Assembly (NCBI RefSeq): GCF_009711525.1
Contig: NZ_SMLV01000436.1
Span: forward strand, 10,680-65,902
Length of the DNA: 55,223 nucleotides
Direction: 5' to 3'
Source of the DNA: Fulvivirga lutimaris
GTDB lineage: Bacteria > Bacteroidota > Bacteroidia > Cytophagales > Cyclobacteriaceae
Shown here: positions 1 to 3,972 of the stretch, one piece after another
How positions within the stretch are numbered: position 1 is the stretch's first letter
How the letters are laid out: every line of letters begins with the position of its first letter
Translations under genes and position numbers: made by a program
The notes under the pieces: generated by a model
Database searches by the model: none
The model's input: only the letters and a program-made list of their open reading frames with translations
Told to the model about the DNA's origin: nothing

Positions 1-1097
1 CTGTCATAGGTGGGGGGCTTGCAGGGCTGGTAAGCGCGATTCTCCTTCAAAAGGAGAAATTAAATGTGGTTCTTGTTGAAAAAAAACAATACCCTTTCCA
101 TCGCGTGTGTGGAGAATATGTCTCCAATGAGGTTGTTGATTTTCTCAAAAGAAACAACATCTACCCGAACTCAGGACACTCCGAACTTAATGAGTTTGCT
201 TTAACATCAATTGCTGGCAAAAAAGCAACCGTACCGCTAGAACTAGGTGGTTTTGGTATAAGCAGATACAATTTTGACTTCTTTCTTTTTAAAAAAGCCC
301 AGGAGGTAGGTGTGCATATTGTAACCGATGCTGTAGACAGTATTTCATACATTGATGATCAGGATGAATTTGTTATTGATCTGAGAAAATCAGGGCAACT
401 CCATTCCAAAATAGCTATTGGTGCTTATGGAAAGCGATCGAATATTGACAGAAATATGAATCGCCCATTTTTTAGCAGACTATCTCCCTACATAGGAGTA
501 AAATATCATATTAAGTATGACCATCCAATAAACCAGGTAGCGCTCCATAATTTTGAAGGTGGATACTGTGGCATAAATGCCATAGAAGAAGGCAAAATGA
601 ACCTTTGTTATCTTGGCGAGAGGTCTGCACTTAAGAAGCATGGCTCAATACCTGAAATGGAAAGAAATGTTCTGCATAGGAATCCTTACTTAAAAAAAAT
701 ATTTATGGAAGCTGAATTCCTGTGGGAAAAGCCTGAGGTGATTAATGAAATATCTTTTGAGACAAAAAAGCCTGTTGAAGGTCATATTCTGATGTGTGGG
801 GATGCTGCTGGGATGATCACTCCACTCTGTGGTAATGGGATGGCTATGGCTATTCATAGTTCTAATATTCTGGTAGAAGATATTTCAAACTATTTTCATA
901 AACACAATGACCGGATGCAGCTTGAAAAGTCATATCGCAGTAAATGGAACAAGCTTTTTAAAACTCGGCTTTCCATTGGCAGAACCATCCAAAATCTATT
1001 CGGATCTGTTTGGTTATCTGAACTGAGTGTGGGTATGTGTAAAATAAAACCACTATCCCGATATCTGGTGTCGCTTACACATGGTAAGCCATTTTAA
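1..1097 (+). CDS. FAD-dependent oxidoreductase (5' end outside window)
   Basis: The reading frame is open from base 3 and has no in-window start. The first codons spell the Rossmann FAD motif VIGGGLAGLVSA, so a start at the GTG at 66 would delete the nucleotide-binding fold. The true start therefore lies just left of the window. About 364 residues are visible. A second FAD motif, GDAAGMITPLCGNGMAMA, sits about two thirds along. This layout fits the geranylgeranyl-reductase/aromatic-monooxygenase group of flavoproteins. The gene converges on the UbiA prenyltransferase gene and their stop codons overlap by 4 bp. Next to UbiA and a type III PKS, it may oxidise the polyketide ring or reduce the prenyl chain; this is inference. 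The family assignment is firm, the substrate is unknown. Confidence 0.85.
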   Translation, partial: VIGGGLAGLVSAILLQKEKLNVVLVEKKQYPFHRVCGEYVSNEVVDFLKRNNIYPNSGHSELNEFALTSIAGKKATVPLELGGFGISRYNFDFFLFKKAQEVGVHIVTDAVDSISYIDDQDEFVIDLRKSGQLHSKIAIGAYGKRSNIDRNMNRPFFSRLSPYIGVKYHIKYDHPINQVALHNFEGGYCGINAIEEGKMNLCYLGERSALKKHGSIPEMERNVLHRNPYLKKIFMEAEFLWEKPEVINEISFETKKPVEGHILMCGDAAGMITPLCGNGMAMAIHSSNILVEDISNYFHKHNDRMQLEKSYRSKWNKLFKTRLSIGRTIQNLFGSVWLSELSVGMCKIKPLSRYLVSLTHGKPF

Positions 1098-1981
1098 TAC
1101 AAAAATAATATTACAAAAAACAGATTCAGGCAAGTTGCTGAAATTGCATTCAATCTCATTGTATTTTCAAAATTCACTACCTCCATATTCTTTCTAGCTT
1201 TAAAGTACCAATAGAAAAAATAACCAACTACAGGTGACATGGACAACACATATAAGAATGCTATATTGAGATTATAGTATTCGATAAAATACAACCCAAA
1301 TAACAATGTAGTGAGAGAGAAAAGGGTCATGGTAAAATGAAAAGTGCCCAAAATTCCAAGTTTCAAACTTAAGGTATTATCACCCCTACTTCTGTCTTCT
1401 TTATGCTGATAAATTTGGGTCATGGGGTATGAGCCCCAGAGCATTACTGAAGTTAAAATAGCGGGGAAAAGCACTTCCTTTTTCAGCAGTTCTTCGGGCG
1501 CAATTCCATTCACACCAAGGTAAACCATTAAAAAAGTAAAGAACCCTTGAAAAACGCCAGCAATAAACCAGCTGGCAAAGGGGTATTTTTTTATCCGAAT
1601 AATAGGGTGGCTATAGGCCTTGGAAACCAATCCATAAACAAAAAACATAACTAGCGTCCAGAAATTAAAAGCAACAAGGACCAATGCTATCAAATCGAAA
1701 ATTAAGGCCAAATAATAAAGCCCCTTATTAACCTTTGGCGGATTTTTCAAACCTCCAATGCTATCTTCATCCTTGTCAAAATAGCTATTATATCCGTTAC
1801 TGGCAGGGTACAGAAATATATGAAGCGCAATAAAAACAATAATGGCATCAGATGTATTAACATTGTCAGATACCGCTAGTGCAAATAAGTAAACGGGCAT
1901 CAGGTAATACGAAAAGGGAATACGCAGATGAAGCCACGCGGATTTAGAAAACATATGAAGTTGTTTTGACCAAGATATCAA
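1094..1981 (-). CDS. UbiA-family membrane prenyltransferase
   Basis: The 295-residue hydrophobic protein has about eight to nine membrane segments. It carries both polar signatures of the UbiA superfamily: N65-xxx-D69-xxx-D73 (NSYFDKDED) and a second acidic site around D196-D201 (EDRSRGD). These bind Mg-diphosphate of a prenyl donor, so the enzyme should attach an isoprenoid to an aromatic or other acceptor in the membrane. It is divergent from the type III PKS gene, with only 22 bp between the start codons, so the two probably share a control region. An alternative start at residue 10 (M, base 1954) would widen that gap and still keep the first membrane segment. UbiA members of menaquinone, heme or ubiquinone synthesis are alternatives, but the neighbours favour a polyketide acceptor. 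Confidence 0.88.
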   Translation of the reverse strand: MISWSKQLHMFSKSAWLHLRIPFSYYLMPVYLFALAVSDNVNTSDAIIVFIALHIFLYPASNGYNSYFDKDEDSIGGLKNPPKVNKGLYYLALIFDLIALVLVAFNFWTLVMFFVYGLVSKAYSHPIIRIKKYPFASWFIAGVFQGFFTFLMVYLGVNGIAPEELLKKEVLFPAILTSVMLWGSYPMTQIYQHKEDRSRGDNTLSLKLGILGTFHFTMTLFSLTTLLFGLYFIEYYNLNIAFLYVLSMSPVVGYFFYWYFKARKNMEVVNFENTMRLNAISATCLNLFFVILFLY

Positions 1982-2003
1982 AATTTGACTATAATTGACC
2001 TTA
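1966..2003. promoter_or_regulatory. Putative divergent control region with TTGAC repeats
   Basis: The short gap between the UbiA and PKS starts, plus the first codons of UbiA, holds three TTGAC words in the same orientation at 1966, 1985 and 1995 (steps of 19 and 10 bp). No clear TAnnTTTG -7 element was found; TATAATTG at 1990-1997 is the closest, but it is too near the PKS start. The words may be an operator or chance in AT-rich DNA. Confidence 0.25.
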
Positions 2004-3080
2004 ATGAACAGTTACATCACATCCATATCTACCGCCAAACCTAAATTCAAGGTTGAACAATCACAAGCACTGGACTTTATGTCTAAAGTAAACGGCATGG
2101 ATAAAGATGAAAAGCATAATTTAGAAGTTCTTTACAGGGCAACAGGTATTGAGAGCAGGTTTTCTGTACTTGAAGATTTTACACTGCCTCCAGATAAATC
2201 CGAATATTTTAACACAACGGGTACGCCAAGCACTGCAGAAAGGCTAGATTTATTTAAGGAAGAGGCTCTAAAATTGAGTTTTGATTCTGCTAAGGATTGT
2301 ATTAGTAAAAGTGGTGTTTCAGGAGAACAAATCACACATATTATTACCGTAAGCTGTACTGGTTTGCATGCCCCAGGATTGGATATCGATCTGATTTATA
2401 AATTAGGACTACAGCATAATGTTGAAAGATTGGCTATAAATTTTATGGGCTGTTATGCAGCATTTAATGCCATTAAAGCTGCCGATGCTATATGTCAATC
2501 ATCTGAGGCAAAGGTTTTGATTATTTGTACAGAACTCTGCAGTATTCATTTTCAAAAAGGCAAAGATGAAGATACGCTGTTGGCCAATGCCTTGTTCGGT
2601 GATGGTTCTGCCGCATTAATGGTTGAATCAATCCCAACAAAATGTAAATCCTTAAAAATAACCTCTGCTCATTGTGACCTATTACCTGCGGGGAAAAGTG
2701 AAATGGCCTGGGGAGTTGGTGACTTTGGATTTGAAATGAAACTGTCATCATATGTGCCAGATGTTATTTCGACAGGAATAAGTACTCTTCTAAAAAATTA
2801 CTCAGAGCATTTTGACTACTATGCTATTCATCCGGGAGGTAAAAGGATTTTAAAGGTCATTGAAGAGCAATTAAACATTACTAAAGAACAAAACATACAA
2901 GCTCACGAGGTACTCAGGCAACATGGAAATATGTCATCCCCAACAATTCTCTTTGTATTAAAGCATATTTTTGATGACTTAACAGAGGCGGATGCCCAGA
3001 AGGACATTCTCGCGATGGCATTTGGCCCTGGACTTACCCTAGAGTCTCTCACCTTTAAAATCACTTTGGATAATGCCTGA
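2004..3080 (+). CDS. Type III polyketide synthase (chalcone/stilbene synthase family)
   Basis: The protein has 358 residues from the ATG at 2004. A TTG at 1995 would add three residues, but ATG is preferred. The catalytic triad of type III PKSs is visible: Cys150 in NFMGCYAAF, His276 in YAIHPGGKR and Asn309 in QHGNMSSP. The enzyme condenses malonyl-CoA onto a starter CoA without an acyl carrier protein and cyclises the chain to a pyrone, resorcinol or naphthol. The product cannot be read from the sequence. The methyltransferase start lies inside its last codons (8 bp overlap), implying translational coupling. With the divergent UbiA and the FAD enzyme it forms a compact cluster for a methylated, possibly prenylated, aromatic polyketide. 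Confidence 0.93.
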   Translation: MNSYITSISTAKPKFKVEQSQALDFMSKVNGMDKDEKHNLEVLYRATGIESRFSVLEDFTLPPDKSEYFNTTGTPSTAERLDLFKEEALKLSFDSAKDCISKSGVSGEQITHIITVSCTGLHAPGLDIDLIYKLGLQHNVERLAINFMGCYAAFNAIKAADAICQSSEAKVLIICTELCSIHFQKGKDEDTLLANALFGDGSAALMVESIPTKCKSLKITSAHCDLLPAGKSEMAWGVGDFGFEMKLSSYVPDVISTGISTLLKNYSEHFDYYAIHPGGKRILKVIEEQLNITKEQNIQAHEVLRQHGNMSSPTILFVLKHIFDDLTEADAQKDILAMAFGPGLTLESLTFKITLDNA

Positions 3081-3780
3081 TTTTAGCCAGAGGTCTGCCG
3101 AAGTTGAGTTGATGGACGATCTTGAAAGTTCAGGAGAGGTCATAGAAATAACCCTTAAAGAGCTGGAGACCATTAATAAATGGCTTGGCGGAAATTTTGT
3201 GACCATCGATGGAATTAGCCAACTTATTAAAAACAAGAAAGGTAAAATTACGATTGCTGATTTAGGTTGTGGCGGTGGGGATATGCTAAAACTGATTGCC
3301 AAATGGGGGAGGAAAATAAAAGTAGATTTTGATTTAATAGGTATAGATGCCAACCCTAGCATCATAGCATTTGCAAAAGAAAACTGTAGCAATTATCCAG
3401 AAATAACCTTTGAGTGTATTAATATAAATGATGAGGCATTCAGGAGCAGAACTTTTGATATTATAACCTCCACCCTTTTCACTCATCATTTTACCAATGA
3501 AGAGCTCAAAGAGTTGCTGTTATCGGCTCATAAACAATCAAAAATTGGAGTAGTTATTAATGACCTTCATCGTCATTGGTTTGCCTATTATTCTATCAAA
3601 TGGCTCACTTCTTTGTTCTCCAAATCTGAAATGGTTAGAAATGATGCAGCGGTTTCTGTTATGAGATCATTTAGAAAAAAAGAACTTAAAACACTGCTTA
3701 GCAAAGCCGGCATTAGGCCTTATTCTATAAAATGGATGTGGGCTTTTAGGTGGCAGCTGGTTATTAAGAGCAATAATTAA
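3073..3780 (+). CDS. Class I SAM-dependent methyltransferase
   Basis: The 235-residue protein has the SAM-binding glycine motif IADLGCGGGDML at residues 61-72 and an acidic motif II ending in LIGIDA (Asp92). A later stretch, DIITSTLFTHHF, is typical of motif IV. It overlaps the PKS gene by 8 bp, so it is very likely co-translated and acts on the polyketide product as an O- or C-methyltransferase. The C-terminal third is basic with several aromatic residues, and I cannot predict the acceptor from it. No signal peptide or membrane segment is seen. The family is certain; the substrate is inferred from context only. Confidence 0.88.
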   Translation: MPDFSQRSAEVELMDDLESSGEVIEITLKELETINKWLGGNFVTIDGISQLIKNKKGKITIADLGCGGGDMLKLIAKWGRKIKVDFDLIGIDANPSIIAFAKENCSNYPEITFECININDEAFRSRTFDIITSTLFTHHFTNEELKELLLSAHKQSKIGVVINDLHRHWFAYYSIKWLTSLFSKSEMVRNDAAVSVMRSFRKKELKTLLSKAGIRPYSIKWMWAFRWQLVIKSNN

Positions 3781-3795
3781 ATTTACTTGAATATC

Positions 3796-3972
3796 ATGTC
3801 CAACTCTCCCAAACTATTGAAAACAAGAAAAGAGAAAATTACTGCCCTGCTTCTAGTCCTTTCCTCCTTGGTTTCAATTTTGTTTTTTATTTATGGGGTA
3901 ACACAAAGTATAGAGGCTCAAAAATTGAATGAAGAATTAATGAAGTGTCGAGGTATTGAAGTATCCGAATAA
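3796..3972 (+). CDS. Small one-helix membrane protein
   Basis: This encodes 58 residues from the ATG at 3796; an in-frame TTG at 3787 is less likely. A basic N-terminus (KLLKTRKEK) is followed by one hydrophobic helix of about 20 residues and a short acidic tail with a single cysteine. It begins 15 bp after the methyltransferase gene in the same direction and is probably the last gene of the PKS operon. I do not recognise a family. It could be a chaperone or anchor for the cluster enzymes, or unrelated. The coding call rests on position, the clear helix and its typical topology. Confidence 0.55.
   Translation: MSNSPKLLKTRKEKITALLLVLSSLVSILFFIYGVTQSIEAQKLNEELMKCRGIEVSE

Follow-up and report, generated by a model that had tools for sequence, protein, structure and literature searches.

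A type III polyketide synthase coupled to a divergent UbiA-type prenyltransferase in Cytophagales: a candidate pathway to a prenylated resorcinol or hydroquinone lipid

A stretch of 55,223 nucleotides from Fulvivirga lutimaris, hereafter the window (draft genome G000, 4.9 Mb; contig C282, positions 10680-65902), opens with genes for a FAD-dependent oxidoreductase (FMO), a UbiA prenyltransferase, a type III polyketide synthase (PKS) and a methyltransferase (MT). An earlier note, made from the letters of the window, had proposed that these enzymes could together make a methylated, prenylated and oxidised aromatic. That proposal is supported by conserved gene order, by collinear operons and by the co-occurrence of the genes where they are unlinked, and the reading of the four genes as one pathway is well supported. 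The most likely product is a methylated, hydroxylated and prenylated resorcinol or hydroquinone lipid, of which we infer the reactions, their order, the starter, the prenyl length and the structure. Direct support comes from the gene set and its linkage, the coupling of UbiA and PKS even when unlinked, the UbiA subfamily, the motifs absent from the FMO, and the clade of the PKS.

The locus and its genes

Domain searches confirm all four enzyme families within the first 4 kb (Table 1), and the assignment is clear for the PKS, UbiA and the MT and only general for the FMO. The genes stand in the order FMO> <UbiA PKS> MT>, with UbiA convergent with the FMO and divergent from the PKS. They are adjacent, as the description of a compact cluster implied, but they are not one operon, since UbiA lies on the minus strand, which the earlier note had not noticed. 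The overlaps it reported at two junctions are present, one between the stops of FMO and UbiA and the other between the PKS stop and the MT start, where the MT gene begins 8 bases before the end of the PKS. The 5' end of the FMO gene falls outside the window, and its first residues are unreadable because a run of N sits just before the window start in the genome record. The MT scores 146 bits against NCBIfam PRK06202, under the cut-off of 243 for that model. The combination of PKS, MT and FAD oxidoreductase in one locus that defines a hierridin-like cassette is found here.

A small membrane open reading frame (ORF) had been placed at the end of the cluster. The ORF is present but is not a member: Pfam and NCBIfam searches gave no family match, and because its single weak homologue is that of the nearest relative (L035, 8006-8125; 37.5% over 40 amino acids), it lies outside the conserved unit and was rejected as a part of the pathway.

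Table 1. Genes at the start of the window
Feature	Position	Strand	Evidence and remarks
FAD-dependent oxidoreductase (FMO)	3..1097	+	FAD_binding_3 over cut-off; 364 residues readable; predicted ring hydroxylase
UbiA-superfamily membrane prenyltransferase, uncharacterised subfamily	1094..1954	-	Pfam UbiA 65 bits (cut-off 34.2); motifs NSYFDKDE and TQIYQHKEDRSRGD
Type III PKS	2004..3080	+	Pfam Chal_sti_synt_N and Chal_sti_synt_C over cut-off
Class I S-adenosylmethionine-dependent MT	3073..3780	+	Methyltransf_25 and others over cut-off
58-amino-acid membrane ORF	3796..3972	+	Adjoins MT; outside conserved unit

Linkage and co-occurrence of UbiA and the polyketide synthase

Gene order was compared at 41 sampled loci, the window included. 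The complete four-gene block is found in 20 of the 41, UbiA adjoins the PKS in 27, and five display FMO>PKS>MT> without a nearby UbiA. The comparison across Cytophagales that the earlier note had called for finds the genes to be neighbours in related genomes, and most sampled relatives within the family retain the block. When the species-genome collection was scanned with UbiA only, the PKS was the next gene in 69 of the 80 best loci considered. A collinear operon, UbiA>PKS>MT>FMO>, is present in other orders and in one Cytophagales family (L115, L223-L225, L227, L231, L232); at L222, unlike at these loci, UbiA is divergent from its cluster. The gene arrangement is not a product of chance and is conserved across genera, families and orders. 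No fifth gene recurs widely across unrelated split loci. The nearest named relatives of the UbiA belong to a Flammeovirgaceae metagenome-assembled genome and to Fulvivirga species, and the cultured genera that carry it include Fulvivirga, Roseivirga and Algoriphagus.

The coupling extends to genomes in which PKS and UbiA are unlinked. Homologues of the PKS occur in 224 of 291 Cytophagales genomes (206 of the 252 good ones). With the exceptions rechecked, 218 of the 291 hold both PKS and UbiA, 63 hold neither, six hold the PKS only and four UbiA only (Fisher p about 1e-51, kinship ignored). Each of 22 PKS-bearing genomes examined, mostly picked because UbiA does not adjoin the PKS, holds exactly one UbiA of this subfamily, which is present in one of 13 examined genomes without the PKS (G164). 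The FMO tracks the PKS too, being present in 18/20 genomes with it and 0/13 without. Phylum-wide, all 23 genomes with a UbiA above 240 bits have a PKS of at least 440 bits, and a single further genome (G470) reaches that PKS score.

Part of the exceptions can be accounted for. Three PKS-only genomes (G029, G059 and G266) were judged by their low scores to hold a different PKS type, with confirmation by sequence for G029 only, and G266 holds just a UbiA fragment. Two of the UbiA-only genomes are less than 85% complete. In G164 the PKS, FMO and MT are all lost, and the UbiA left at the same place (L136, G164:C1:5000-24500) keeps an open reading frame and lacks both catalytic motifs, as expected if UbiA is useless without the pathway. 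Family f42, which lies outside the class, carries its distant UbiA (about 150 bits) away from the PKS; in many f42 drafts the PKS lies about 11-13 kb from the contig start, which would fit contigs broken off at a fixed repeat or an rRNA operon.

Enzyme features and the readings they permit

The catalytic residues of the PKS are intact, as the earlier note had read them (Cys150/His276/Asn309), and Trp236 and Met245 occupy CHS positions 256 and 265. In a tree of 61 rows the UbiA-linked PKSs group together (support 82/93), in a clade that also holds an enzyme from a Psychrobacter plasmid. The larger group (95/86) comprises enzymes from the PKS-MT-FMO cassettes of Paludisphaera, Deinococcus and alphaproteobacteria together with PKS18, Ectocarpus PKS1 and Steely1. 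Tetrahydroxynaphthalene synthase (THNS), PhlD, BpsA-type and Flavobacteria-type PKSs fall outside it, several of them on long branches. The phylogeny proposed earlier as a way of narrowing the product class goes part of the way: it groups the PKS with cassette enzymes and PKS18, and HidC, ArsB and SrsA are not among its rows. The tree does not favour a THNS-type or PhlD-type PKS, with the reservation that the branches concerned are long.

Two side observations concern plasmid-borne cassettes. On Psychrobacter urativorans plasmid 5 (L233, NZ_CP012711.1, 7001-9824), the PKS is accompanied by an FMO and an MT, with no UbiA nearby, and its position inside the Bacteroidota UbiA-linked clade suggests horizontal transfer to this gammaproteobacterial plasmid. 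Plasmid 3 of Deinococcus radiodurans DRR11 carries a further cassette variant, in which glycosyltransferase and phospholipase D-like genes come after PKS, MT and FMO (L235, 5001-10714).

Trp236 is invariant in 20 aligned members and corresponds to ArsB Trp281, a match based on THNS Tyr224 and on the distance of nine residues to Met; in ArsB this residue steers resorcinol versus pyrone formation (PMC6274091). Two positions split 30 UbiA-linked from 15 UbiA-free PKSs completely, kinship being ignored. Position 121 is Met or Leu (once Ser) in the UbiA-linked enzymes and Phe in their UbiA-free relatives; position 146 is mostly Asn in the former and Gly in the latter. Since these residues differ, and position 146 matches Gly190 of Ectocarpus PKS1, which is reported to open an extra cavity or enlarge the cavity, the comparison suggests that the PKS acquired another substrate or product as UbiA was gained.

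The same split would suit a ubiquinone-like route, in which the PKS would use a short starter to form a small ring of the orcinol, orsellinic or phloroglucinol type, UbiA would supply the whole tail, and the MT and FMO would finish a benzoquinone. By extension, the Flavobacteria-type clusters would arrive at a comparable molecule, using their own fatty-acid-type enzymes to make an acyl tail. The UbiA-free clusters with orthologous FMO and MT do have short-chain dehydrogenase/reductase (SDR), hotdog, ketosynthase and phosphopantetheinyl transferase (PPTase)-like genes instead. Against such a route, the closest neighbours of the PKS clade are enzymes associated with long-chain starters (our tree; PMC10896814), and small residues are kept at the PKS18 tunnel positions S143 and C205 (here Cys118 and Cys179). 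We regard a ubiquinone-like route as unlikely, if worth keeping in mind.

The UbiA fold is confirmed at the level of the structural model (pLDDT 93.6), whose best fold matches are UBIAD1, AfUbiA, DGGGP synthase and ApUbiA. Both UbiA motifs had been described as intact; both are in fact modified (NSYFDKDE, QHKED), and the variant is conserved in the subfamily. The first reads NSYFDKDExSIG, without the second Asp of the canonical NDxxDxxxD. In the second, TQxYQHxEDxxRGD, every intact member has Gln where DxxxD has its first Asp; its ED..RGD part varies in members from other orders. The canonical motifs of the superfamily are absent, with most acidic residues kept. These substitutions invite another reading, a hierridin-like alkylresorcinol cluster whose UbiA-fold protein has a role other than transfer, such as lipid binding, transport or cyclisation, and many bacteria do run PKS, MT and FMO without UbiA. 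The retention of Asp61, Asp63 and Asp188 and of the fold speaks against it, as does the decay of both motifs only where the pathway is lost, and we consider a non-transfer role improbable.

The best NCBIfam score of the FMO is with a geranylgeranyl reductase subfamily (87 bits against a cut-off of 159), and the earlier note had allowed that the flavoenzyme might reduce the prenyl chain instead of the ring. This suggestion fares poorly. The reductase motif YxWxFP is absent in 15/15 FMO members, no geranylgeranyl reductase is among the 50 best fold matches, the fold neighbours are aromatic halogenases and hydroxylases, and orthologues of the FMO and MT occur with a different PKS in UbiA-free Flavobacteria-type clusters and in the Cytophagales genome G029. 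A prenyl-reducing FMO is accordingly rejected as very unlikely. A halogenase was rejected as well: halogenases do appear among the best fold matches, but the motif WxWxI(P) is absent in the same 15 members. Because it has neither motif and has orthologues in UbiA-free clusters, the FMO more likely oxidises the ring, and these orthologues indicate that FMO and MT probably follow the ring and not the prenyl chain. The Flavobacteria-type clusters (L249, 2732-9385; also L247 and L250) contain the extra SDR, hotdog dehydratase, ketosynthase and PPTase-like genes, functions read by eye from the sequence and not scanned. At L272 (6838-12430), a relative of the FMO (417 bits) has carotenoid-type genes as neighbours and a C-terminal UbiA fragment just upstream.

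No curated UbiA subfamily model scores over its cut-off with this UbiA; the best MenA model gives 15 bits against a cut-off of 346, and the NCBIfam EboC model has no match at E 0.1. Nor does the enzyme match anything in a sequence search of the PDB or in tblastn against plasmids. The same genome has separate MenA, CtaB, PRK12872-type and decaprenyl-phosphate-phosphoribosyltransferase-type paralogues over cut-off, plus a weak LA_0991-like one. In the UbiA tree the paralogues sit on saturated branches, which display their distance and not their exact placement. By these scores the protein belongs to a subfamily of its own and is neither a MenA nor a heme O synthase. It stands apart from the menaquinone and heme enzymes; a grouping with them is what the earlier note had named as contrary to its reading. 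Roles in menaquinone, heme O or archaeal-type lipid synthesis are common in the superfamily, but it is scarcely credible that such an enzyme stands here beside the PKS by chance, given the separate paralogues, the lack of any matching model and the tracking of the PKS even when unlinked; the menaquinone and heme O identities were rejected on the same scores and on the presence of separate MenA and CtaB. A survey of Bacteroidota UbiA enzymes, Algoriphagus included, distinguishes MenA, EboC-like, GGGP-like and heme O groups, and none of these four matches this subfamily (PMC9235831). The UbiA-297/EboC enzymes treated there are likewise UbiA enzymes of marine Bacteroidota, including Algoriphagus, but they sit in the ebo operon, and the UbiA described here has no EboC match.

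The proposed pathway and comparison with known systems

In the proposed pathway, the PKS would extend an acyl starter with malonyl-CoA to a tetraketide and close it to a resorcinol-type ring. UbiA would attach an isoprenyl chain to this ring, using Mg2+ and a prenyl diphosphate. The MT would place a methyl group on a ring carbon or oxygen, and the FMO would hydroxylate the ring to give a hydroquinone- or quinone-type head group. Judged from the sequences, the four genes probably work together in a single pathway, whose product would be a prenylated resorcinol or hydroquinone lipid soluble in the membrane. Several points weigh against this reading. Gln replaces a metal-binding Asp in the second UbiA motif. 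The co-occurrence statistics carry no correction for shared ancestry. Three genomes of one genus (G151, G213 and G223) keep the PKS with no UbiA at the locus, and G075 is a genuine UbiA-only genome. The pyrone-forming PKS11 also has Trp at the ArsB 281 position. The UbiA-free PKS relatives already yield lipid-tailed products, and prenylation is not obviously needed.

We advance more tentatively the wider proposal that the majority of Cytophagales makes an unrecognised class of polyketide-derived prenylated quinol lipids through the Gln-motif UbiA, and that Flavobacteria-type clusters swap the terpene for a fatty tail while using the same ring-modifying enzymes. Reports on Bacteroidota genomes frequently mention type III PKS clusters to which no product is assigned, and our search of the literature on UbiA and type III PKS in Bacteroidota and Cytophagales, incomplete in its coverage, found no account of this pathway. 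In about 75% of sampled Cytophagales genomes a dedicated prenyltransferase accompanies the PKS, and so wide a distribution is more in keeping with a core lipid than with a sporadic antibiotic. If the pathway is confirmed, the lipid would give bacteria an equivalent of the prenylated resorcinols of plants and fungi, made with a new UbiA subfamily, and possibly a second redox or protective lipid beside menaquinone-7. The most interesting point is whether the UbiA tail adds to an alkyl tail or replaces it.

The srsABC genes of Streptomyces griseus follow the same logic, with an alkylresorcinol PKS, a methyltransferase and a hydroxylase, and have no UbiA. Their flavin hydroxylase shares the role proposed for the FMO, a likeness drawn from the kinds of enzyme alone. 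In plants and fungi, prenylated resorcinols of the cannabigerolic and grifolin types are made by prenylation of a polyketide ring by a UbiA-superfamily enzyme. UbiA-type prenylation of a polyketide ring in these organisms is described in PMC8309193; the organisms and gene sets are unrelated to ours, and the likeness is drawn at the level of the superfamily.

The planctomycete operon and the cyanobacterial hidABC genes for hierridins unite the same three kinds of enzyme in one cassette. The planctomycete MT-oxidoreductase-type III PKS cassettes make pentadecyl- and heptadecylresorcinols, and co-expression of their MT and FMO added one methyl group, probably on carbon (Milke et al. 2024, PMC10896814). 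In our tree, the larger clade around the UbiA-linked PKSs includes the PKS of the Paludisphaera cassette, but the planctomycete operon has no UbiA, another gene order and different residues at PKS positions 121 and 146. The hierridin-like cluster of Raphidiopsis contains a PKS, an MT, an oxidoreductase and a prenyltransferase gene, as does the window, and is a single cyanobacterial case without a product, likened here by gene content alone (Larsen et al. 2021, PMC8086630). The Flavobacteria-type clusters share orthologous FMO (about 480 bits) and MT (about 260 bits) with the window but have a PKS of a different clade (about 205 bits), their own additional genes and no UbiA. The proposed pathway is a variant of the bacterial PKS-MT-FMO cassette, one that may work like the prenylated-resorcinol pathways of plants and fungi without being classed with them.

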